Of a stretch of DNA of 64,000 nucleotides, positions 28,365 through 40,151 are shown one piece after another (within the stretch, counting starts at the first letter, position 1; each line of letters opens with the position of its first letter). A model generated the notes under the pieces. That model searched no databases. It saw only the letters and a program-made list of their open reading frames with translations, and had not been told where the DNA came from. Source of the stretch: Pirellulimonas nuda (GTDB taxonomy: Bacteria > Planctomycetota > Planctomycetia > Pirellulales > Lacipirellulaceae); contig NZ_CP036291.1 in the NCBI RefSeq assembly GCF_007750855.1, forward strand, positions 682,001 through 746,000. Direction: 5' to 3'. The position numbers and the translations under genes are program-made.

Positions 28365-28511
28365 GGGAGTGGTCGGTGGTCGGCCGGCGATAGGGTAGAC
28401 CGTCCATCATGGGCGGACCTGCCAGATCGGGCAACGGCCCTGCCGGGCAGGAAAGCCCTGCGGGGAGGGGTATCGCGGGGGTCTGGGGCGATTGTGCCGG
28501 CGACACGGGCT

Positions 28512-28584
28512 GGCGAGCCGTCGGCGTCAGCCACCGGAGCCTTTCCCCCGCAAAACCTCCGGCGGCCGACGCCGACGGCTCGCC
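28512..28584 (+). repeat. Intergenic palindrome, GGCGAGCCGTCGGCGT family (copy 1)
   Basis: The arms 28512-28539 and 28557-28584 (28 bases each) are complementary at 26 positions. The outer GGCGAGCCGTCGGCGT sequence recurs in the palindrome at 58154. It lies in the divergent gap between the epimerase and decarboxylase genes. Confidence 0.85.
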
Positions 28585-28613
28585 TACCCGGGGCGCCCCG
28601 GGGCGGGACTGAT

Positions 28614-28668: not shown

Positions 28669-29640
28669 ATGCCCCTCAAACGTATCCTCGTGACCGGCGG
28701 CGCCGGATTTCTTGGCTCTCACCTGTGCGAGCGGCTCATCGAGCAGCAGCACGACGTGATCTGCCTCGACAACTTCTTCACCAGCCAGAAGTCGAACGTC
28801 GTCCACCTGCTCGACCACGCCAACTTCGAGCTGGTGCGGCACGACGTCACCCACCCCATCTGGCTGGAGGTCGACGAGGTGTTCAACCTCGCCTGCCCCG
28901 CGGCGCCGGGGCACTACCAGTTCAACCCCATCAAGACGATGAAGACCAGCGTGATGGGGGCCATCAACGTGCTGGGGATGGCCAAACGCTGCCACGCCAA
29001 GGTGCTGCAGGCCAGCACCAGCGAGGTGTACGGCGACCCCGAGATCCACCCGCAGCCCGAGAGCTACCGCGGCAGCGTGAACCCCATCGGCCCGCGCGCC
29101 TGCTACGACGAGGGGAAGCGGGCAGCCGAGACGCTGTTCATGGACTACCACCGCAGCAACCGGGTCAACGTACGCATCGTGCGGATCTTCAACACCTACG
29201 GGCCGCGGATGCACCCGTTCGACGGCCGCGTGGTGAGCAACTTCATCCGTCAGGCGCTACACGGCGAGGACATCACCATCTTCGGCGACGGCAGCCAGAC
29301 GCGCAGCTTCTGCTACCGCGACGACCTGGTGGAAGGGATGATCCGCATGATGAACGGCCCCGACGACTTCATCGGCCCGGTGAACATCGGCAACCCGGGC
29401 GAGTTCACCATCCTCGAGCTGGCCAAGCAGGTGATCGAGATGACCGGCTCCAAGAGCAAGCTGGTCCACCGCCCGCTGCCGGCCGACGACCCTACGCAGC
29501 GCCAGCCGGACATCACGCTGGCGCGCGAGAAGCTGGGCTGGGAGCCGAAGATCAAGCTCCGCGATGGCCTCGAGAAGACCATCGCGTGGTTCAAGACGGT
29601 GAAGCTGGAAGACTTCCGCGCGCCGACGCCGAACTACTAG
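28669..29640 (+). CDS. UDP-glucuronate decarboxylase (UDP-xylose synthase)
   Basis: A 323-residue extended SDR that would convert UDP-glucuronate to UDP-xylose with bound [20 protein letters not shown] is the cofactor loop, [13 protein letters not shown] the adenine-side segment, STSEVYGDP and YDEGKRAAE the catalytic Ser/Tyr/Lys set. The YDEGKRAAE form and [20 protein letters not shown] distinguish UXS enzymes from epimerases. ATG 28669 ([11 protein letters not shown]) begins at the Rossmann strand. Its TAG is the last unique sequence before the 409-bp duplicated sulfatase segment. Confidence 0.93.
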
Positions 29641-30047
29641 CACGGCGTGCGCAAATCGGGCATCCACGCGTGCGAAGATCTTCGTGCGACATTGACGAAA
29701 TTGCAGCCCACCGCGGCCCGATCCGCTTGCTACACTGCCAGAGTTGGCCCCCCTTCTCTGCTCCCTGCTGCCGGCAAGCACTATGCCCTCGTCTGCTCTC
29801 GCGATTGGTCGGATCGGCGTGTTGTTGGTCGCGCCCTTGGTTCTCTTCGGGGGCGCCTCGCTCGCGGCGGCGCGGGCGCCGAACGTGGTGTTGATTCTGG
29901 CGGACGACCTTGACTGGGCCGACACCACGCTGTACGGCCACACCCGGCTGTACCGCACGCCGAACATCCAGCGGCTAGCGGCGCGGGGCGTCACCTTCAC
30001 CCGGGCCTACTCCGCCAGCCCGCTCTGTTCGCCGACGCGGTCGGCGG
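29639..30047 (+). repeat. 409-bp direct repeat, left copy (sulfatase 5' region)
   Basis: This segment matches 38481-38889 without gaps at a constant offset of 8842; I count about eleven mismatches. It includes roughly 140 bases of promoter/leader and the first 265 bases of a sulfatase gene. Identity stops abruptly at 30047 (GTCGGCGG), after which the sequence is unrelated. Confidence 0.92.
29783..30047 (+). pseudogene. Truncated sulfatase gene (N-terminal fragment)
   Basis: The ATG at 29783 starts the same signal peptide and N-terminal domain as the full sulfatase at 38625: [20 protein letters not shown] and onward through LCSPTRSA, i.e. up to the formylglycine motif. It then breaks off. The frame runs 17 codons into unrelated DNA that is antisense to the neighbouring oxidoreductase gene, so no functional enzyme is possible. 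Coding differences from the intact copy include Gly to Asp in the metal-binding DDLGW region (DDLDW), consistent with relaxed selection. Confidence 0.9.
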
Positions 30048-30072: not shown

Positions 30073-30831
30073 TCAGGCGGTTGCGACCGCCGCATGATTG
30101 AGCCACTGCGTAAGGCTGGTCTGTCCCAATCGCGGCGCGCCAATGGGCCGTAGTTCGCCGTTGTTCGGTCGGGCGCCGTAGTACCGGGCCTCGGGGTCGG
30201 CGACCACCTTCCGCGTGTCGCCGCGCGAGGCCAAGAACCGCCGCGCGGCCTCGTCCATCGGGATGTCCTCCGGGCCGGCGATCTCGATGGCGCCGTTGGA
30301 GGGGGCTTCATCGACCACGTCCGCAAGCGCCGCGGCGACGTCGTCCGCCGCGATGGGCTGCATCTCAGCCGTGGGGAGGCGGATCTCTTCGCCCGAGGCG
30401 GCTGATTCGGCGATGGCGCCCAGGAACTCGAAGAACTGCGTGGCGCGGACGATCGTGTAGGGGACCCCGGAGGCCCGGATCAACGCTTCTTGGGCCGCCT
30501 TTGCACGCATGTAGCCGCTGTCGGGCAGCCGGTCGGCGCCCACCACCGAGAGCGCCACATGATGCTTCACACCCGCCGCCGATTCTGCGGCGAGCAGGTT
30601 CCGCCCGGAGGTCTCGAAGAACGCCAGCACGTCTTTGTCCGCGAACGACGGCGAGTTCGCCACGTCGACGATTACCTGCGCTCCCACAAGGGCGTCGGCT
30701 AACCCTTCGCCCGTGATGGTGTTCACCCCCGTCGAGGGGGCCGCGGCCAGCACGTCGTGCCCAAGGTCACGGAGCCTGCGGGCGAGCTTCGTTCCGATCA
30801 GTCCCGTGCCGCCGATGATTACGATGTTCAT
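30073..30831 (-). CDS. NmrA-like NAD(P)-binding oxidoreductase
   Basis: A 252-residue atypical [23 protein letters not shown] is the Rossmann start, [17 protein letters not shown] and [20 protein letters not shown] follow as in the NAD(P)H-binding family used near ECF41 sigmas; [20 protein letters not shown] is the substrate side. It has no classical YxxxK triad in the usual form (YMRAKAAQE gives Y-x3-K-like spacing). It is 76 bases after the AhpD-like gene and probably co-transcribed from the ECF41-type promoter at 31505-31531. Substrate unknown. Confidence 0.85.
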
Positions 30832-30907
30832 TTTGGTTTCTCCCGTGTTTCGTGGTTGGGTGGGCAAAAAACAATGAGGGGCGTGCATCCTGCCCCGGTG
30901 AACCCGA

Positions 30908-31381
30908 TTACTTGTTCGATGCGCCGGGCGGCTGATAGTTTCCCGGGACCGTCCGCAGAGCGATGTTCACACGGTTCCAGGCGTTGATGGCGCTGACGGT
31001 CCAGGCTAGGTCGCTGAGCTCTTGGTCGTTAAAACTTTTGCGGGCTGCTTCATGCACCTCGTCTGGGATCGAGCGGTCGGCCACCCGGGTGAGCTCCTCC
31101 GCCAGCATGAAGGCCACACGTTCTCGCTCGCTGTAGTAGGGGCTCTCACGCCAGGCCGAGAGGCCGTAGAGCCGCTGCTCTGATTCGCCAGCCGCGCGGG
31201 CGTCCTTCCAGTGCATGTCGATGCAGAAGGCGCAGCCGTTGATCTGCGACACGCGGAGATGGATCAACTCTCGCAGCGGCTTCTCGATGCTGCCCTGCGC
31301 CAGCGCCTTCTCCACGCCCAGCATCGCACGGTAGGCAGTGGTGCTTTGTTTATCGACAGTCGACCTGGCAGTCGTGCTCAT
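30908..31381 (-). CDS. Carboxymuconolactone decarboxylase/AhpD-like protein
   Basis: A 157-residue alpha-helical protein of the CMD/AhpD fold. The thiol motif C50-AF-C53-IDMH57 (CxxCxxxH) is intact, as in alkylhydroperoxidase AhpD-core proteins that reduce peroxides. LRVSQINGCAFCIDMHWKDA and RERVAFMLAEELTRVADRSI are the core helices. The start at 31381 (MSTTARSTVDKQS) is preferred because the predicted promoter at 31505-31531 lies inside the longer frame. Genes of this kind are the best-known targets of ECF41 sigma factors, whose gene is next upstream. Confidence 0.9.
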   Translation of the reverse strand: MSTTARSTVDKQSTTAYRAMLGVEKALAQGSIEKPLRELIHLRVSQINGCAFCIDMHWKDARAAGESEQRLYGLSAWRESPYYSERERVAFMLAEELTRVADRSIPDEVHEAARKSFNDQELSDLAWTVSAINAWNRVNIALRTVPGNYQPPGASNK

Positions 31382-31504
31382 CGCGTTCTCGCTATTGCGT
31401 TTGATGGTTGCTTGATGGCGGGATCGGGCGCCCGCCCTTTTCTTTACTGGCTCTGTTGCCCGCCGTTTGGAATGTTCCAAAGCAACGGGCCCTGCTACTT
31501 CAAG

Positions 31505-31531
31505 GACGGAGGGGACCGCGTTTTTGTGACA
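31505..31531 (-). promoter_or_regulatory. ECF41-type promoter (TGTCACA-N16-CGTC) of AhpD-like/NmrA-like genes
   Basis: Read on the reverse strand, TGTCACA (31531-31525) is followed after exactly 16 bases by CGTC (31508-31505). This is the recognition sequence described for ECF41 sigma factors. It lies about 125 bases before the AhpD-like start codon, and the sigma gene ends 110 bases further upstream. Confidence 0.8.
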
Positions 31532-31641
31532 GCCACTCAGAAGAAATGTACGGGGGGCGAATCGAGGCGGCTTGCAGCGCCCCCCAGCGCAGCAGGCCGC
31601 GGCCACGGGTTGGACGGGAGGCGACTCGCTCAGCAGAGCGG

Positions 31642-32538
31642 CTAGTCCACTTTGGCGACCGACCAGCGGGCAAGCTTCTCTGGGTTCACGCTCATGTAGA
31701 CGCCGCTGACGCCGTGCTCGATACGCAAGGACACCACGTGTTTCACCACGCCGTCCTGCGTGAAGAAAACACCGGGGTCGCCGTTCACGGTGGCGGCGTG
31801 CATCTCGCAGCCCCTGCGCTTCTTGTGGAACACCACGCTCAGGTACTTTGCAACGCGGGCGCGTCCGCGGACCACGACCCGCGCGGCGAACACCTTGCCG
31901 CCGCCATCGGAATGGGCCTCGACGTCGTCCGTCAGCAGCTGTTCAACCGTCTTCACGTCCCCCGCCCGACAAGCGGCGACAAATTGCTCGGCCAGCTCGA
32001 CCGCCTTCTCGGGGGGCGGTCGGAACCGGGGGACCGCTTCCGCCAAATGGGCCTTGGCGCGGCTAACGATCTTGCGGACGTACGCCTCAGAAACCCCCAG
32101 ACACTCGGCCACCTCAGAGAACTCGTAATCGAAAACGGTCCGCAATACGAACGCCGCCCGCTCTCTAGGAGAAAGACGCTCGAGCATCAGCAGAAAGCCC
32201 TGGCTAAGCGACTCTTCCATGCTTGCGTCGTGCATGCCGGTGGAGGTGTCTACGGGTTCGGGAACCCAGGGGCCGATGTACGACTCACGCCGGCGGGCCG
32301 CGCGGAGGTGATCGATGCAGCGCCGGGTGGTTGTCCTGATCAGGAAGCCCTCCGGCGAGCGCACGTCGCGGGCGTTCTGCAAGCGGAGGAACGCGTCTTG
32401 GACCGCGTCTTCGGCGTCCACTACGCTGCCGAGCATGCGGTAGGCGACCGACATCATCCGCGGCCGCAGCTCGTGGGCGCCATCGAGCGTGGCGCTGCTT
32501 TGCGTGGCGCTGCCGCCGTCAGCAATGGAACCAACCAT
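31642..32538 (-). CDS. ECF41-group sigma factor with SnoaL-like C-terminal domain
   Basis: A 298-residue sigma factor. Region 2 is AYRMLGSVVDAEDAVQDAFL and region 4 LSPRERAAFVLRTVFDYEFS plus EVAECLGVSEAYVRKIVSRA. About 115 extra C-terminal residues form a SnoaL-like domain. Three motifs typical of ECF41 are present: WVPEP in the linker (91-95), DGGGK (210-214) and NPEKL near the end (284-288). In this group the fused domain regulates the sigma in place of a separate anti-sigma. A GGAGG site precedes ATG 32538. It follows the cupin gene by 50 bases and is probably autoregulated from the promoter at 33091-33117. Confidence 0.93.
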   Translation of the reverse strand: MVGSIADGGSATQSSATLDGAHELRPRMMSVAYRMLGSVVDAEDAVQDAFLRLQNARDVRSPEGFLIRTTTRRCIDHLRAARRRESYIGPWVPEPVDTSTGMHDASMEESLSQGFLLMLERLSPRERAAFVLRTVFDYEFSEVAECLGVSEAYVRKIVSRAKAHLAEAVPRFRPPPEKAVELAEQFVAACRAGDVKTVEQLLTDDVEAHSDGGGKVFAARVVVRGRARVAKYLSVVFHKKRRGCEMHAATVNGDPGVFFTQDGVVKHVVSLRIEHGVSGVYMSVNPEKLARWSVAKVD

Positions 32539-32588
32539 CGAGTCCTCCTCGCCGCCCGTTGGGGAACCGGCAAAACTGCTTGCCGTCT

Positions 32589-33026
32589 TTACTGGTGATG
32601 TTCGACCGGGACCGCGATCTGGTCGGTGTCGCGGGAGTGCAGCACGACCGCAATCAGGCGGGTCGGTCCCTTGTCCGATGGGTTCCTAGACACCCGGTGC
32701 AGGCATCCGGTCGGCTCGTAGAACGTTTCCCCTGCCTTGAAACGCTTGGTTGGCTCATCGTTGATGCCGAGCTCGTATTCCCCTTCGAGCACGTAGACGA
32801 ACCCCGGCCCCGGATGCCGGTGGGCAAGGCCGCTCTGGCCCGGCCCGATGGTGACTTCCACGATGGTCGCCTTCGCCTCGACGCCGTCGAGCATTTCTTG
32901 GATGTCCTGCGAGGAGAGGACGCGCACGTGCTCGCCATCCTCCGGGTGGCGCCCACCGACCGCCCCACCTAGCCCAAGACCGATAACAATTACGCCGACA
33001 GAAACCACGAACGTGCGAAGCATCAT
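32589..33026 (-). CDS. Secreted cupin-domain protein
   Basis: A 145-residue protein with a hydrophobic N-terminal leader (LRTFVVSVGVIVIGLGLGGA), then one small beta-barrel. Cupin motif 1 is seen as GLAHRHPGPGFVYVLEGEYE (HxH...E), and motif 2 as GETFYEPTGCLHRVSRN (H). The His/Glu ligands for a metal are therefore present. The first of two adjacent ATG codons (33026) follows GGGAGAGA. It is the first gene after an ECF41-type promoter and shares the unit with the sigma gene, so it is likely part of the stress response controlled by it. The substrate is unknown. Confidence 0.85.
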   Translation of the reverse strand: MMLRTFVVSVGVIVIGLGLGGAVGGRHPEDGEHVRVLSSQDIQEMLDGVEAKATIVEVTIGPGQSGLAHRHPGPGFVYVLEGEYELGINDEPTKRFKAGETFYEPTGCLHRVSRNPSDKGPTRLIAVVLHSRDTDQIAVPVEHHQ

Positions 33027-33090
33027 TCTCTCCCGGAAGACCCTTGAAAACAACTACCCGGCCGAACGCGGTGCTCGGCTCACAAACAAG

Positions 33091-33117
33091 GACGGACGGC
33101 CGGGTCGATTTGTGACA
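33091..33117 (-). promoter_or_regulatory. ECF41-type promoter (TGTCACA-N16-CGTC) of cupin-sigma operon
   Basis: Reverse strand TGTCACA (33117-33111), 16 bases, then CGTC (33094-33091), the same consensus and spacing as at 31505-31531. It lies 65 bases before the cupin start codon and would make the sigma gene autoregulated. Confidence 0.8.
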
Positions 33118-33623
33118 GCAGGGGTCAGCATCGGTCATTGTCCCTGCGATGGGTCTGAAACCCTCGCCTTCAGGCGAAGCCTTTTGGTTCATATATTGGG
33201 TGGATGGAGAACTACCGCACGGGTGCGCATAGCCGCTATGACATCAAGTATCACTTCGTGTGGGTGACGAAGTACCGGAAGCAGGTCCTTTCGGGTGCAG
33301 TAGGCACACGGGTTCGGGACTTGGTGCGTGAGGTCTGCCGGACCAATGACATCGAGATTCTGCAGGGGTCGGTGTCGCTCGATCACGTGCACGTATTGCT
33401 GTCGTGCCCGCCGACACTCTCGCCGAGCTAGATTATGCAGTACATCAAGGGGAAGACGTCGCGGAAGCTGATGATGGAGTTCAAGCACATTGAGAGGCGG
33501 TTCTGGGGTCGGCATCTGTGGGCGCGGGGGCTACTTCGTGGCGACCAGCGGTAACGTGACCGACGAGGCTATCGCGGCGTACATCCGCGGGCAGGACGGC
33601 GCCGAACCAAGCGATGGTGACGA

Positions 33624-34887
33624 CAGGGCAATCGCATCTAATCCGAACGAGGAGCATTGTTGCGTCGTAATGCTTGGAGTCTAGTGGGTCGGCGGAGCCG
33701 ACCCGGCGGTAGCATTCCTAGCACGGAGGTCGGAGCATGGCGTCTGCAAACGTTCCTGTAATTCTTACACACTTCGAGGAGCTGTCCGATCCGCGTATGG
33801 ATCGGACGAAGCAGCACCGTCTGGGCGACATGGTGGCCATCGCCATCTGCGGCGCGATCTGCGGCGCCGACACGTGGGCCGATGTGGAGCGGTTTGGCCG
33901 TGAGAAGTTCGAGTGGTTCCGCACGTTCTTGCGTCTTGAGAACGGCGTCCCCTCGCACGACACGTTCGGGCGGGTGTTCGCCTTGCTCGACACCAGCGAG
34001 TTCTACAACTGCTTGGCGAACTGGGTCGCTAGCCTGCAGCTCGACCTGAAGGGGAAGACCGTGGCGATCGATGGCAAGACCCTCCGCAGGTCGCACGACA
34101 AGTCGGTCGGCCGCTCGGCGCTGCACGTGGTCAACGCGTGGGCGACCGACCTGGGGGTGTCGATCGGCCAGGTGGCGACCGAAGAGAAGTCGAACGAGAT
34201 CACCGCGGTTCCCCGGCTTCTTGAGATGCTGGCGATCGAGGGGGCGGTGGTCACCCTCGACGCCATGCACTGTCAGAAGGAGACCGCCCGAGCGATCCGC
34301 AACCGCGGCGCCGACTACGTGCTGCAGGTCAAAGCCAATCAGCCTTCGATGCACGACGCGCTGCAAGAGTTGTTCATCGAGTTCGGCGACGCCGACTACC
34401 GCGGCGTGCGTCGGCACACGACTGTCGAGAAGAGCCACGGGCGGGAAGAACGGCGGGAGTACTACGTCGCGGCGGCGCCCGAGTCGCTTGCCCGCGACTG
34501 GCGCGATGTCCGCTCGGTCGGCATGGTGTACCGCTGCCGCGAGGCCAGCGGCAAAGAGAGCCGCGAGGTGTCGTTTTTCCTCAGTCCGCCGCGGCGGACC
34601 CGCCGAAAGTGCGGTCGTTGGCCGGGCATGTGCGGGGGCACTGGCGGGTGGAAAACGCACTGCACTGGTCGCTCGATGTAACTTTTTCAGAGGACCAGAG
34701 CCGCATCCGCAAGGGCAGCGGCCAAGAAATATGCTCTGGATTTCGCCGCCTGGCGCTCTCGATTCTCAAGCAGGACACTACCCTCCGTGAGAGTCTACGC
34801 GGCAAACGTCTCCGCGCAGGGTGGAATAACGCCACGCTTCAGAGGATTCTCACGGGGAATGCCGCGTGATTAGATGCGATTGCCCTG
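33624..34887 (+). mobile_element. ISAs1-family element 1, inserted in IS200
   Basis: 1264 bp bounded by perfect 20-bp inverted repeats (CAGGGCAATCGCATCTAATC at 33624-33643 and its complement at 34868-34887). The 10-bp target repeat ATGGTGACGA occurs at 33614-33623 and 34888-34897. Intact ends with exact target duplication indicate direct transposition into the IS200 tnpA gene. Confidence 0.96.
33737..34869 (+). pseudogene. ISAs1 transposase with frameshift (element 1)
   Basis: ATG 33737, after a GGAG site, starts a normal ISAs1 transposase: LTHFEELSDPRMDRTKQHRL, GKTVAIDGKTLRRSHDKS (first Asp), VVTLDAMHCQKETARAIRN (second Asp) are intact. Near 34580-34610 the frame is lost; the expected continuation (RSLAGHVRGHWRVENALHWS, SLDVTFSEDQSRIR with the catalytic Glu, then a tail to 34869) is found in another frame. 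The first frame stops at 34681. The catalytic Glu is therefore not made unless ribosomes shift, so this copy is probably immobile on its own. Confidence 0.88.
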
Positions 34888-35129
34888 ATGGTGACGACCG
34901 ATTCCAAGTTACTCCACCATCGTGAGTTGAGGACTTCAGTCCGAATCTCACGGAACGTCCAAACCCACCGGCTTCAGCCGGTGGTAGTTTAGTTTTTCGT
35001 AGACTGCCGTCGATTTGTGGTGGAGGGAAGACAAACCGGGGGCACCCAACCTCCGAGCATTTCACCACCCCCGTTTGACGACCAACTGTTCGCGTGTGCA
35101 CGGCACAGCGTGCCGTCCGTTTCCCGCTC

Positions 35130-35460
35130 ACGCGAGGCGCGGCGCCCACGGACCGCCTGGCACGCGCTGACCGGGTCGATCCTGCCGTGTTGGCGGCGCA
35201 CCACTGCATCAACCGCTGCGTGCGGCGATGTTTCCAGTGTGGGCTCGACCTCTACACTGGCCAGAACTTTGACCACCGCAAGGCGTGGCTCGAACCACGG
35301 CTACCGAGCTCGCGGGGCTGCTGGGTGTCGACGTAATCGGCTTTGCGATCATGTCGAACCACTTCCACCTGGTTCTGCGGAGCCGGCCCGGCTGGTCGAG
35401 GTGCGGCGCCGGCTGAGCGACATCAGCTAGCTGATACGGATGCTCTCCGGTAGGCAATCG
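35130..35460 (+). pseudogene. Remnant of REP-associated-type tyrosine transposase
   Basis: Pieces of an IS200-like (RayT-type) transposase are readable in successive frames. AAHHCINRCVRRCFQCGLDL and YTGQNFDHRKAWLEPRL come first, then, after a frame change near 35305, ELAGLLGVDVIGFAIMSNHF and HLVLRSRP. The HUH-like motif is HFHLVL. LSDIS-stop-LIRMLS follows, where a Trp codon seems to have become TAG. No complete frame and no start codon remain. It is directly left of the IS4 insertion at 35472. Confidence 0.7.
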
Positions 35461-36704
35461 GTATCAGGAACGAATGGCACTGTCGTTCGCAGGCTGTTTC
35501 ACGTACAGCGTTTAGCGAGTTGAGCGCGGAGCACGCTGCGGGGTTTTTGCATGAGTGGGTAGGGCTTGGGTCGTCGTTTGCGTACGCGGGGTTCGAGGCG
35601 CCCGGGTCGGTTGGCGACCTCGCAGGCGGCGATGTGCTCCAGTGCGGTGGCCGCGATCTGTTTCAGCCTGTCGCTGTGGGGGTGATCGGCGCGGATGACC
35701 ATCCAGGTCGCCAGCACGTACTGGCAGGTGCTGGTGAAGCTGATCTGACGCGCCAGCTTCTGATGCGCCAGCGCCGCGGCGGCGGCCGTGGTGCGGATCA
35801 GGTTGTAGGCCAGCAGCGTCGCCCACAACTCGCGACGGACCATCTCCGGCGACAGCGTCCGCACGTGGTTCAGGTTCAGCGAGGTCTTGATATGGTTGAT
35901 ATCGGTCTCGCTGTTCCAGCGGAAGCCGTACAGGTCGGCGATCGACTGCTTGTCGTGCACGGCTGGGTCGAGCAGCGTGGTGATGATGGTGACCGACTTG
36001 GTGCGCCGCCCCTTCTCGACAATCCAGTAGCGGATTTCGCGGAGGACCAGCAGCGGGGGGATCAGCTCGTATGCGGCCTGGTCCATCCAGGCCGGGCGTG
36101 CGGGCCGGGTCCACGCGATCAGGTGGTCGTACTTGCCCAGCCGCAGGCCACGGCGGAAGTCGCTGTGCCGCTTGTGGTGCTTGCGGGCGCAGACCTCGGC
36201 CCCCCGCCCGCGCAGCAGCGCGATCATCATGAAGGAGCAGTAGTAGCGGTCCATCACCGCCACATCCCCCGCACCGAAGCGGCCCAACAGCATCCGCAGC
36301 AGCGCCGACTCGCCGGTCTGCTTGCCGCGGTAGCGGGCGATCGCGGCGTCGAGCACGCACGCGGTGGCGAGCGACACCACCACCACGGCCCGCGCGATCG
36401 GCAGGCCGCACCCCGGGCGTTGCGTCTTGGGTTGGGGGTACTCGGCCTGGTTGGCGGGGGTGTCGGGCATGGTGAAGGTGAACCCGTCCACAAGCTTCGC
36501 GTGCAGCCCCTTCCACAGCCACGCGGGCTTGGCTGCCTGCTCGACATCTCCTGCAACCAACGTGGTCAGCTCGTGCAGGGCGCCCTCGCACAGCTTCGCG
36601 CGGGCGCGGCAGTAGTCGCCGGTGTCTTGGGTCGGAGGCTCGATCCCGCTGGCCTGGCAGTAGGCGACCACCCGCGCCACCGCGCCCTGGCACGAGGCCT
36701 CCTT

Positions 36705-37965
36705 CAGGGCGATTGCACGTTAACTCATGCCCCGCAGAGCACTTCGAGTCGGTACTGATCGCTCCATGCCGCGGTGAGGCGTTTGTTCTTTACGCCGAGC
36801 TTTCGGGAGGTGTTGTTCTTGAGCAGGCTCAGCGCCGTTCTGCGCAGCAGGCTGAGGTTGGCGTCGGCGTGTCCCTTGCGGACGCGGCATTGGTCTTCGC
36901 CGAACGTCACGTCGAGCTGCCAGTGGAGTGAGTTCTCGATCCCCCAGTGGCCGCGCACCGCCTCGGCGAACCTCTTGCCGCTCACGTAGCGGCTGGTGAT
37001 GTAGTAGCGTGTGTCGAATGTCTGTGCGCCGTCGCCATGGGTGGTGATGCGGACCGCCATGCCGATCGCCTTGAGCCCACGCCACTTCTCACGCTCGGGA
37101 AACCCCTCCGGCAGCTTCGTCAGGTAGTAGTAACGGTCTTCCTCGCGGCCGTGCCCCTTCTCGTGCGACTCGTGCCGTCGGCACGCCACGTTCCGGCAGT
37201 CGTCTTCCAGTTGCGCGGTGAAGAACGCATCGATCGCTTCGCACAAGTTCGGTTGGTTCCCCTTGGTCGCCAGCACGTAGTCGCCGCCCCCTTCGACGAT
37301 CCGCTCGGCGATCTCCCGTTGACACCCCATCGCGTCGATGGTCACCAAACACCCCTTGATTTCCAGCATCTCAAGCAGCCTTGGGATGGCTGTGATCTCG
37401 TTGCTCTTGGCGTCGGTGACGACCTGCCCCAGGGCGATATGATTGGCGGTCGCCCAGGCGCTCACCATGTGGATCGCCGCCTTGCTGCTCGCTGCGTCGA
37501 AGCTGCGCCGCAGCGTCTTACCATCGATCGCGATCACCTGGCCGTCGGTGACCTCATGCAGCGCGGTGACCCAGCTCAAGAAGCACTTCTCGAACTCGGC
37601 CGGGTTGAGGGCCGCGAAGACCGCGTTGAAGCGGTCGTGCGAAGGCACGCCCGCCGACAGGTCCAAGAACTTCGCCAGCCACCCTCTCTTCTCCCTCGAC
37701 CACGCGGCGATCGACACGAAGTCGTCCGCCCCGCTTAGGACCGCGCACAACGCCATCACCACAACGTTCACCAACGGGTAGATCGGCTCACGCCGACGCG
37801 GATCGGTTAGCCCCTCGAAATGCCTCGCGATCCCTGCCTCGGAAACCTCGCCCACAACAATCCCTCCGGCAAGAACGCAAACATGACGCAAGCGGCGCTC
37901 CCAACGAAATCATGTTCGACTCGCCGTAAGTCTCGCAGACTACCCAGCGTGGCGCAATCGCCCTG
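36705..37965 (-). mobile_element. ISAs1-family element 2, inserted in IS4
   Basis: 1261 bp with ends CAGGGCGATTGC (36705) and GCAATCGCCCTG (to 37965), and the 10-bp target repeat AGGCCTCCTT at 36695-36704 and 37966-37975. It differs clearly from element 1 but is close to element 3. Confidence 0.95.
36725..37855 (-). CDS. ISAs1-family transposase (element 2)
   Basis: A 376-residue DDE transposase with the H-repeat N-terminal domain (HFEGLTDPRRREPIYPLVN). DGQVIAIDGKTLRRSFDAAS has the first Asp, CLVTIDAMGCQREIAERIV the second, and IENSLHWQLDVTFGEDQCRV the Glu. The start is GTG 37855, preceded by GGAGGG; the same start gives an identical length in element 3. The frame is complete, so this copy may be active. 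It probably also could mobilise element 3, whose ends are similar. Confidence 0.93.
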   Translation of the reverse strand: MGEVSEAGIARHFEGLTDPRRREPIYPLVNVVVMALCAVLSGADDFVSIAAWSREKRGWLAKFLDLSAGVPSHDRFNAVFAALNPAEFEKCFLSWVTALHEVTDGQVIAIDGKTLRRSFDAASSKAAIHMVSAWATANHIALGQVVTDAKSNEITAIPRLLEMLEIKGCLVTIDAMGCQREIAERIVEGGGDYVLATKGNQPNLCEAIDAFFTAQLEDDCRNVACRRHESHEKGHGREEDRYYYLTKLPEGFPEREKWRGLKAIGMAVRITTHGDGAQTFDTRYYITSRYVSGKRFAEAVRGHWGIENSLHWQLDVTFGEDQCRVRKGHADANLSLLRRTALSLLKNNTSRKLGVKNKRLTAAWSDQYRLEVLCGA

Positions 37966-38480
37966 AGGCCTCCTTGCCGTCGCGCAACACCTGCCCCAAG
38001 AACGACCAGACCATCACCGCCGTGCTGTAGACCGACCTCAACCCGAACAGGTTCTGGTGACGCGCGAAGACCGCCTCGATCCGATCGGCCGAGATGACCT
38101 CGGCGAACGGCAGCCCCTCGGCGCTCAGAAATGCCTCGGCGATCTGGCCAAACCCGTCTGGCCGCCGAGGCCGGGGATCGATTATCCCAGACATGAGAAA
38201 ACCCTCCTTGGCAAGTTCACTGCTCGTGACACCAAGGAGGGCTCTCAAAAAACTACCAAGGCGGGCCAAACTCCTACAAGATCAACCTGCCGGGGACAGC
38301 TTATAACAAAAAGCCAAACCGCGGCCAGCTCAGACTGCGCGCCGCGAGGAAATCGACAGTGCCATTCGTATCAGGAACCTTTTCCTCCGACGAGAGAGGG
38401 ATCCGGACACCGCTTGCCGGCGGGCAAACACCCGAGCCGTGCACGCCAGCAAGCGGAGCAGCGCCACGCCGCACTCCCCC

Positions 38481-38889
38481 AGCACGGCGTGCGCGAATCG
38501 GGCATCCACGCGTGCGAAGATCTTCGTGCGACATTGACGAAATTGCAGCCCATCGCGGCCCGATCCGCTTGCTACACTGCCAGAGTTGGCCCCCCTTCTC
38601 TGCTCCCTGCTGCCGGCAAGCACTATGCTCTCGTCTGCTCTCGCGATTGGTCGGATCGGCGTGTTATGGGTCGCGCCCCTGGTTCTCTTCGGGGGCGCCT
38701 CGCTCGCGGCGGCGCGGGCGCCCAACGTGGTGCTGATTCTGGCGGACGACCTTGGCTGGGCCGACACCACGCTGTACGGCCACACCCGGCTGTACCGCAC
38801 GCCGAACATCCAGCGGCTAGCGGCGCGGGGCGTCACGTTCACCCGGGCCTACTCCGCCAGCCCGCTTTGTTCGCCGACGCGGTCGGCGG
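38481..38889 (+). repeat. 409-bp direct repeat, right copy (sulfatase 5' region)
   Basis: Partner of 29639-30047. Here the repeat continues into the complete sulfatase gene. The sequence just before it (38379-38480) has no counterpart at the left copy, which instead follows directly on the UDP-glucuronate decarboxylase stop codon. Confidence 0.92.
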
Positions 38890-40151
38890 TGCTGACGGGG
38901 CTCAGCCCCGCGCGGACCGGCATCACCGCGCCCAACTGCCACCTGCCCCAGGTGGTGCTGCAAGCGAGCCCCACACGCACCGCCGCGCCCAACCAGAAGG
39001 CCACCATCCCGTCGGCCGTGACGCGGCTCAAGACCCAGTACCGCACGCTGGCCGACGCGTTGGGGGAGGCCGGCTACGCGACGGGCCACTTCGGCAAGTG
39101 GCACCTGGGGCCGAAGCCCTACTCGCCGCTGGAGCAGGGTTTTGCGGTAGACATCCCCCACTGGCCCGGCCCGGGGCCGGCCGGCAGCTACGTGGCGCCC
39201 TGGAAGTTCAAGGACTTCGACGCCGACCCCGGCGTCCCCGATCAGCACATCGAAGACCGCATGGCCCAAGAAGCGGTCGACTGGATAGAGCAGCACGCCC
39301 AGGAGCCCTTCTTCCTCAACTACTGGATGTTCAGCGTGCACGCGCCGTTCGACGCGAAGAGTGCATTGATCGACGCGTACCGTGATCGCATCGACCCCAA
39401 CGACCCGCAGCACTGCCCCACCTACGCGGCGATGGTCCAGAGCATGGACGACGCGGTCGGGACGCTGTTGGACGCGCTCGACCGGCTCGGCATCGCCGAC
39501 AACACGGTCGTGGTGTTCGCCTCGGACAACGGCGGCAACATGTACAACGTGGTCGAAGGCGCCCCGCCCACCAGCAACGCCCCGCTCCGCGGCGGCAAGG
39601 CCACGATGTACGAGGGGGGGACGCGCGTGCCGTGCGTCGTCGATTGGCCCGGCGTCACCCCGGCCGGCGCCCGCACCGACGCCCTGTGCCAGAGCGAAGA
39701 CTTCTATCCAACGCTGCTGGCGGGGCTGGGGCTCGACCCGGCGCCCGGCCAGAAGTTCGACGGCGTGAGCCTGATGCCGGTGCTGCGCGACCCCACCCAG
39801 CCGGACGAGGCGACCGGCCGCAACGCGGTGTTTCAGTACTTCCCGCACAACCCGCCGGTGCCCGACTGGCTCCCGCCGTCGGTGTCGGTCCACCGCGGCG
39901 ACTGGAAACTAATCCGCATCTTCCACGGCGGCGAAGAGGGCGGGCACCGCTACCTGCTGTTCAACCTCAAGGAAGACCTCGGCGAGCGCGACAACCTCGC
40001 CGCCGAAAAGCCTGAGCTGGTCGCGGAGCTCGACGGGCTGATCAAAACGTTCCTCACCGACACGGCCGCCGCGACGCCGACGCCCAACCCCAAATTCGAC
40101 CCCAAGAAGTACCGCCCGGAGCTCGAGGGGCGCGGGAAGACCCGCTCGTGA
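38625..40151 (+). CDS. Secreted sulfatase, intact copy
   Basis: A 508-residue S1-type arylsulfatase. The signal peptide ends at about [21 protein letters not shown] supplies metal-binding Asp residues. C82-S-P-T-R-S is the formylglycine motif (CxPxR), and [10 protein letters not shown] and [11 protein letters not shown] give the conserved Lys/His and DNG residues. It would remove sulfate esters from polysaccharides in the periplasm after maturation by a formylglycine-generating enzyme, not seen here. The ATG at 38625 begins the leader; the upstream TACACT at 38573-38578 may be its -10. Its 5' 265 bases are duplicated at 29783. Confidence 0.93.

Follow-up and report, generated by a model that had tools for sequence, protein, structure and literature searches.

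An ECF41 sigma factor module with two matching promoters in Pirellulimonas nuda, and planctomycete cupin operons that look like ECF41 targets also in trans

The window analysed here (64,000 nucleotides of Pirellulimonas nuda, positions 682001-746000 of a single 6.62 Mb contig; all coordinates below are window positions) harbours a four-gene module centred on a sigma factor of the ECF41 group (ECF, extracytoplasmic function). We consider it highly probable (roughly 0.87) that this sigma factor drives both its own cupin-sigma unit and a second unit, encoding AhpD-like and NmrA-like enzymes, from two promoters of the form TGTCACA-N16-CGTC. For planctomycetes at large, we give about even odds to the broader proposal that ECF41 sigma factors run a regulon of an exported cupin and an NmrA-like protein (with or without a member of the carboxymuconolactone decarboxylase, CMD, family) in cis and in trans, as a response that reaches the cell envelope. 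The four genes all lie on the minus strand, in the order cupin, sigma, CMD/AhpD-like and NmrA-like oxidoreductase, and each of their products scores above the Pfam cut-off for some family. The features are:

33091..33117, minus strand: promoter 1, TGTCACA-N16-CGTC, exact match, before the cupin-sigma unit.
32589..33026, minus strand: Cupin_2 protein, 145 amino acids, with an N-terminal hydrophobic segment (Pfam, alignment, hydropathy scan, AlphaFold, Foldseek).
31642..32538, minus strand: ECF41 sigma factor, 298 amino acids, sigma2-WVPEP-sigma4-SnoaL_2 (Pfam, PRK09636, nearest solved sequence SigJ 5xe7).
31505..31531, minus strand: promoter 2, TGTCACA-N16-CGTC, exact match, before the AhpD-like/NmrA-like unit.
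30908..31381, minus strand: AhpD-like CMD-family protein with a CxxC motif (CAFC; PF02627 and TIGR00778 above cut-off).
30073..30831, minus strand: NmrA-like NAD(P)-binding oxidoreductase (PF13460, NAD_binding_10, and PF05368, NmrA, above cut-off).

The sigma factor is a real, well-formed member of the known ECF41 group. Sigma70_r2 (PF04542), Sigma70_r4_2 (PF08281) and SnoaL_2 (located in the C-terminal extension; 31.2 bits, cut-off 27) all exceeded their Pfam thresholds, as did the SigJ-type NCBIfam model PRK09636 (292.2 bits, cut-off 271), and TIGR02957 (the SigX4 model) stayed below its own (300.5 bits, cut-off 323.25). By sequence, the best solved relative was SigJ of Mycobacterium tuberculosis (5xe7, E 5.2e-38), which comes from a different phylum but aligned over residues 21-259, the SnoaL_2 part included. 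A reading of the DNA letters that preceded this work (hereafter, the sequence-only reading) had assigned the protein to ECF41 on three marks and a fused SnoaL-like domain, and all of these were found: WVPEP at residues 91-95, DGGGK at 211-215 and NPEKL at 285-289, with WVPEP, DGGG and NP.K invariant in an alignment of 15 sigma factors. DGGGK and NPEKL are taken as ECF41 marks on the word of that reading. Neither name occurs in the main text of the ECF41 study PMC3426412, where the motif named for the group, in the linker between sigma2 and sigma4, is WLPEP. The SnoaL-like extension at the C-terminus, which in ECF41 factors spans about 100 residues, is likewise present in the window's sigma factor. 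The genome encodes a single ECF41 factor (one of the 11 SigJ-model matches passed the cut-off, with 291.8 bits; the next reached 48.8), and its neighbours are, by Pfam, the cupin, CMD and NmrA-like genes, with no adjacent anti-sigma gene.

The two promoters proposed for this module proved to be exact, equally spaced and on the same strand, and together with the gene content they support a self-contained four-gene regulon in cis. Within the window, the exact pattern occurs at 31505-31531 and 33091-33117 (both on the minus strand) and nowhere else; shuffled versions of the window (n = 100) gave an expectation of 0.05 exact copies (standard deviation 0.22), and none of them (0/100) held two. The count with one mismatch was close to the shuffle level (3 observed, 1.23 expected; 11 of the 100 shuffles had at least 3), therefore the exact form alone is informative. 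The genome-wide scan that had been suggested for finding further targets was carried out, and it yielded, besides the two module sites, a single further exact copy across the 6.6 Mb of the genome. This third copy was rejected as a promoter, as it sits within a 559-codon stop-free frame (resembling a secreted LamG-type protein, as judged by eye rather than by family search). Since one-mismatch copies were enriched neither in the window nor in the whole genome (28, versus 35 for a reversed-pattern control), no additional targets are proposed for this genome. Both module sites carry the same four bases after CGTC (CGTCCTTG); as an extended promoter box this was dropped, for the resulting octamer occurs 12 times in the window (2.7 expected), including 10 occurrences outside the module sites.

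The promoter pattern and the type of target agree with what is known of the group. In PMC3426412 (Wecke 2012), the consensus TGTCACA-n16-CGTC and neighbouring genes for carboxymuconolactone decarboxylases, oxidoreductases or epimerases (COE) are reported for ECF41, and the study confirms, for two bacteria, the earlier statement that the consensus and the AhpD/oxidoreductase targets were already established elsewhere. The same study describes ECF41 as a widely distributed sigma group (Planctomycetes are not among the ten phyla of its Table 3) and notes four cupin-fold proteins whose genes presumably share operons with ECF41 genes.

A scan of genome contigs for relatives returned 14 loci, ten of which are planctomycete (nine by title, plus L047, titled 'Bacterium', whose sigma factor groups with theirs). 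In all ten a cupin stands upstream of the sigma gene and the stretch includes an NmrA-like gene, and two have an AhpD gene; the remaining four (Actinomycetota and Pseudomonadota) lack a cupin in the position upstream of the sigma gene, and in three of them the motif precedes an AhpD-like gene (once with a spacer of 15). The distribution of the sigma factor is patchy: counting the window's own genome, it was detected in 16 of 392 genomes of the phylum (E 1e-50), 9 of 396 of the order (E 1e-85) and 6 of 43 of the family (E 1e-40). In a quick tree of 66 sigma factors from the loci in hand (with a single support measure and some long branches), the window's sigma factor falls in a 22-member planctomycete clade (SH-aLRT 99), where its nearest relatives by tree path are those of G694 (a genome from another family of the order) and Thalassoglobus, followed by a member of its own family.

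Within this clade the cupin lies next to the sigma gene in 20 of the 22 members, and two more cupin-adjacent sigma factors branch just outside it. Given this linkage, and the four published operonic cupin-fold neighbours, the cupin is not peculiar to the window's genome, and its description as an unusual addition to the module was not borne out. An NmrA-like gene was present in the fetched stretch of 20/22 members, and AhpD genes in 6/22, each of the six with the motif upstream; the clade core is formed by cupin, sigma and NmrA, with AhpD as the variable gene. A search of the 450 bases ahead of the first gene (fewer at contig ends) in all 22 members recovered the motif in its exact form in 11, in 14 when a spacer of 17 or CGTT was allowed, and in 20 when the first base was freed as well.

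To what extent the cupin follows ECF41 away from the sigma gene was assessed in 397 genomes of the class, of which 64 were cupin-positive at E 1e-25, with 84 places that were all examined. ECF41 was scored as present at a SigJ-model match of E 1e-30 and as adjacent when the match lay within ~1.5 kb, and the strict pattern was TGTCAC, 16-18 bases and CGTC or CGTT, sought in the 450 bases before the cupin match (in three contig-end loci the stretch was shorter). The strict motif was found at 15 of 25 cupin loci with an adjacent sigma gene, at 15 of 41 whose genome carries ECF41 at another place and at none of 18 in genomes without ECF41 (15/41 versus 0/18, Fisher p 0.0025); all 30 motif-bearing cupin loci thus come from ECF41-positive genomes, and per genome the count was 28/48 with ECF41 versus 0/16 without. 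A relaxed pattern gave 22/25, 15/41 and 0/18 in the same classes, and its reversed form 0/84. Because the motif splits in this way by the presence of ECF41, the cupin operon looks like an ECF41 target in trans as well.

A comparable signal was seen when whole genomes were scanned with TGTCACAAA-N14-CGTC, in a set of 80 genomes (the 64 cupin-positive ones, 6 added as known ECF41 carriers and 10 arbitrary). There were 38 matches in the 54 ECF41-positive genomes (421 Mb), versus 5 for the reversed pattern, and 3 versus 2 in the 26 genomes without ECF41 (168 Mb). By hand, 30 of the 38 could be assigned to sigma, cupin, AhpD or NmrA units, and the other 8, unassigned, compare with the 5 control matches. 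Position-weight scoring of the cupin loci that lack the strict motif pointed to near-consensus sites in several ECF41-positive genomes; its training motifs came from such loci, and it serves as an illustration only.

Several points weigh against these readings of the module and its regulon. The strict motif is missing from 26 of the 41 cupin loci with a non-adjacent ECF41, therefore many cupin paralogues are not targets; the cupins of ECF41-less genomes tend to be more distantly related (with identity of at least 50% and no adjacent sigma gene, the split was still 15/33 versus 0/11, p 0.008; with an adjacent NmrA gene and no sigma gene it was 8/13 versus 0/1, where the single locus of the second class says nothing). 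Among the 16 cupin genomes without ECF41, three have a completeness below 85% (81-84%), and the p values overstate independence because the genomes are related. Six of the 54 ECF41-positive genomes were included for their known ECF41, 53 of the 54 lie above the SigJ-model cut-off (G105 is below), and the AAA-extended pattern was picked after some loci had been viewed. In the clade itself, L079 (which has no cupin) and L146 lack the motif upstream of the first gene, also when the relaxed form is allowed. Moreover, ECF41 factors are concluded in PMC3426412 to control generally one target operon.

Two observations concern other sigma genes in this set. The ECF41 genes of G373, G601, G640 and G852 group on a different branch of the tree, each with the motif ~1.4-1.5 kb upstream; at L067 of G373 (100-2379), representing this second planctomycete ECF41 branch, a 438-residue frame that by eye (and not by family search) resembles an FAD-dependent oxidoreductase stands between motif and sigma gene. 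At a second locus of G373, L094, a short sigma remnant that matches no more than query residues 23-74 lies between the cupin and AhpD genes. The locus was counted among the 25 sigma-adjacent ones; it looks like a case in which the cis sigma factor was lost while targets and motif were kept, and G373 has another ECF41 gene at a different place.

Gene content, family, motif, conservation and the co-occurrence of motif and ECF41 across genomes are established in this analysis; recognition of the motif and control by the C-terminal domain are carried over, by homology, from the literature on other ECF41 members. In that literature, shortening of the C-terminal extension raised target activity ~20-fold in Bacillus licheniformis and 120-fold in Rhodobacter sphaeroides, its entire removal abolished that activity, and a co-expressed CMD protein had no significant effect (PMC3426412). 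We reason that the fused SnoaL_2 domain would keep the sigma factor at low activity until some small molecule or state frees it from this restraint. The freed sigma factor would then steer RNA polymerase to both TGTCACA-N16-CGTC promoters, so that promoter 1, through the cupin-sigma unit, would let it amplify itself and promoter 2 would supply the AhpD-like and NmrA-like enzymes. Cupin (probably exported) and NmrA would form the standing output in the clade, whose likeliest task, together with the CMD protein, would be to alter or clear a reactive small molecule. The use of both promoters by the sigma factor, the export of the cupin, the chemistry and the signal are what we infer beyond the observations.

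The cupin passed the Pfam cut-off for Cupin_2, and three histidines (His68, His70 and His109, counted from the second Met) are invariant across 11 aligned cupins, making a three-histidine metal site a plausible prediction; the glutamate usual in cupins is absent from its place. A 12-residue stretch with a mean Kyte-Doolittle value of at least 1.48 precedes the barrel in every one of 108 cupin frames (these include repeats of one gene from overlapping loci, and the lowest scorer, L162, has no clear start); hence, judged from hydropathy, the cupin is likely exported or membrane-anchored through a Sec signal or anchor. Its AlphaFold model consists of a barrel with blocks mostly at 89-97 pLDDT (predicted local distance difference test) and residues 1-27 unsure, and Foldseek returned only generic cupins (oxalate oxidase, dimethylsulfoniopropionate lyase, TM1459 and others), from which no function was inferred.

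Could the cupin take part in sensing the signal, either as a partner like ChrR (the cupin-like anti-sigma factor of R. sphaeroides RpoE, ECF11, and likewise a cupin-fold protein whose gene neighbours that of an ECF sigma factor) or as an extracytoplasmic ligand-processing enzyme? The linkage to the sigma gene in 20 of the 22 clade members would suit such a role beyond mere output, and Cupin_7, the model of the ChrR cupin-like domain, matched 11 of 11 aligned cupins (the window's cupin, at 25.8 bits, falls just below the gathering score of 27). Unlike ChrR, however, the window's cupin fits Cupin_2 far better, a Pfam scan detected cupin families only and no zinc anti-sigma domain, and its hydrophobic N-terminus suggests a location other than the cytoplasm, the compartment in which the sigma factor acts; the family also occurs in genomes without ECF41, and two clade members do without it. 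We regard a sensing role as improbable, if slightly less so than the two alternatives that follow.

Both of these draw on the genomic setting. On one side the module borders a sulfatase gene copy truncated to its 5' part, and on the other insertion sequence (IS) elements, followed by the intact sulfatase (38586-40151). A direct repeat of ~409 bases (97% identical) links 29639-30047, at the truncated copy, with 38481-38889, at the intact gene. The region at about 33130-38270 is occupied by multi-copy IS elements with DDE transposases, one nested in another, several of which have 98-100% identical copies elsewhere in the genome; from these copies, the nearest element, which a further IS interrupts, has its edge ~11-19 bases upstream of promoter 1. 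This element reads like an IS200-type one with a broken frame. The GC content at third codon positions is 0.78-0.85 in the four module genes and 0.92 in the two flanking genes compared, which, with the IS setting and the patchy occurrence of the sigma factor, suggests acquisition by transfer. Separately, an inverted repeat lies at 28499-28597 (46-base arms, 83% complementary, 7 bases between).

With such surroundings and base composition, the module might be a decaying, unexpressed passenger of an IS-rich insertion; but all four frames are open and of normal length, both promoters are exact and the conserved motifs of the sigma factor are retained, and we deem this unlikely. Equally unlikely, in our view, is a sigma factor that serves promoter 2 only, in the manner of the classic single COE target, with promoter 1 as a relic and the cupin-sigma unit driven, for example, from the adjoining insertion element. 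The published conclusion of one operon per ECF41 factor favours it, as does the replacement of everything beyond the element edge, yet promoter 1 is retained (relaxed form) in nearly the whole clade, and the motif-bearing cupin loci come without exception from ECF41-positive genomes. The reading in which the sigma factor uses both promoters remains the one we prefer.

Regarding chemistry, the AhpD-like protein passed the core-domain model TIGR00778 and failed the AhpD subfamily model TIGR00777 (24.4 versus 191.95 bits), and its near solved sequences are 2ijc and 2o4d (PA0269). The sequences suggest that the module's enzymes handle a reactive organic molecule. Of the peroxide or small-molecule response initially put forward, the small-molecule half is the safer; a peroxide response is a weak proposal, hinted at mainly by the CMD/AhpD name, further by the CxxC motif and by the slightly raised H2O2 sensitivity of an M. 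tuberculosis sigJ mutant (cited in PMC3426412), and countered by the lack of an oxidative-stress phenotype in two ECF41 systems (PMC3426412).

Compared with the two systems treated there, Ecf41Bli-ydfG (B. licheniformis) and Ecf41Rsp-RSP_0606 (R. sphaeroides), the window's module has in common the sigma architecture, the W[LV]PEP linker, the C-terminal extension, the TGTCACA-n16-CGTC pattern, a CMD target beside the sigma gene and the lack of an anti-sigma gene. It differs from them in having two promoters for two same-strand units, in being led by a probably exported cupin with an NmrA-like gene in addition, and in having relatives with motif-bearing cupin loci away from the sigma gene. No description of a planctomycete cupin regulon under ECF41 was found in the literature searched, and, most subscription papers being beyond reach, we claim no novelty in print.

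The sigma group, its consensus, the target types and operonic cupin-fold neighbours are known since 2012 (PMC3426412); what appears to be new is the probably exported cupin as a standing partner in this clade, and ECF41 targets that are not confined to the neighbourhood of the sigma gene. A recurrent, probably exported cupin that apparently follows ECF41 in trans would constitute a second output of these sigma factors, whose chemistry could point to the signal, and the genome of P. nuda, with one ECF41 gene and two promoters, offers a compact testing ground for the link between cupin and ECF41.

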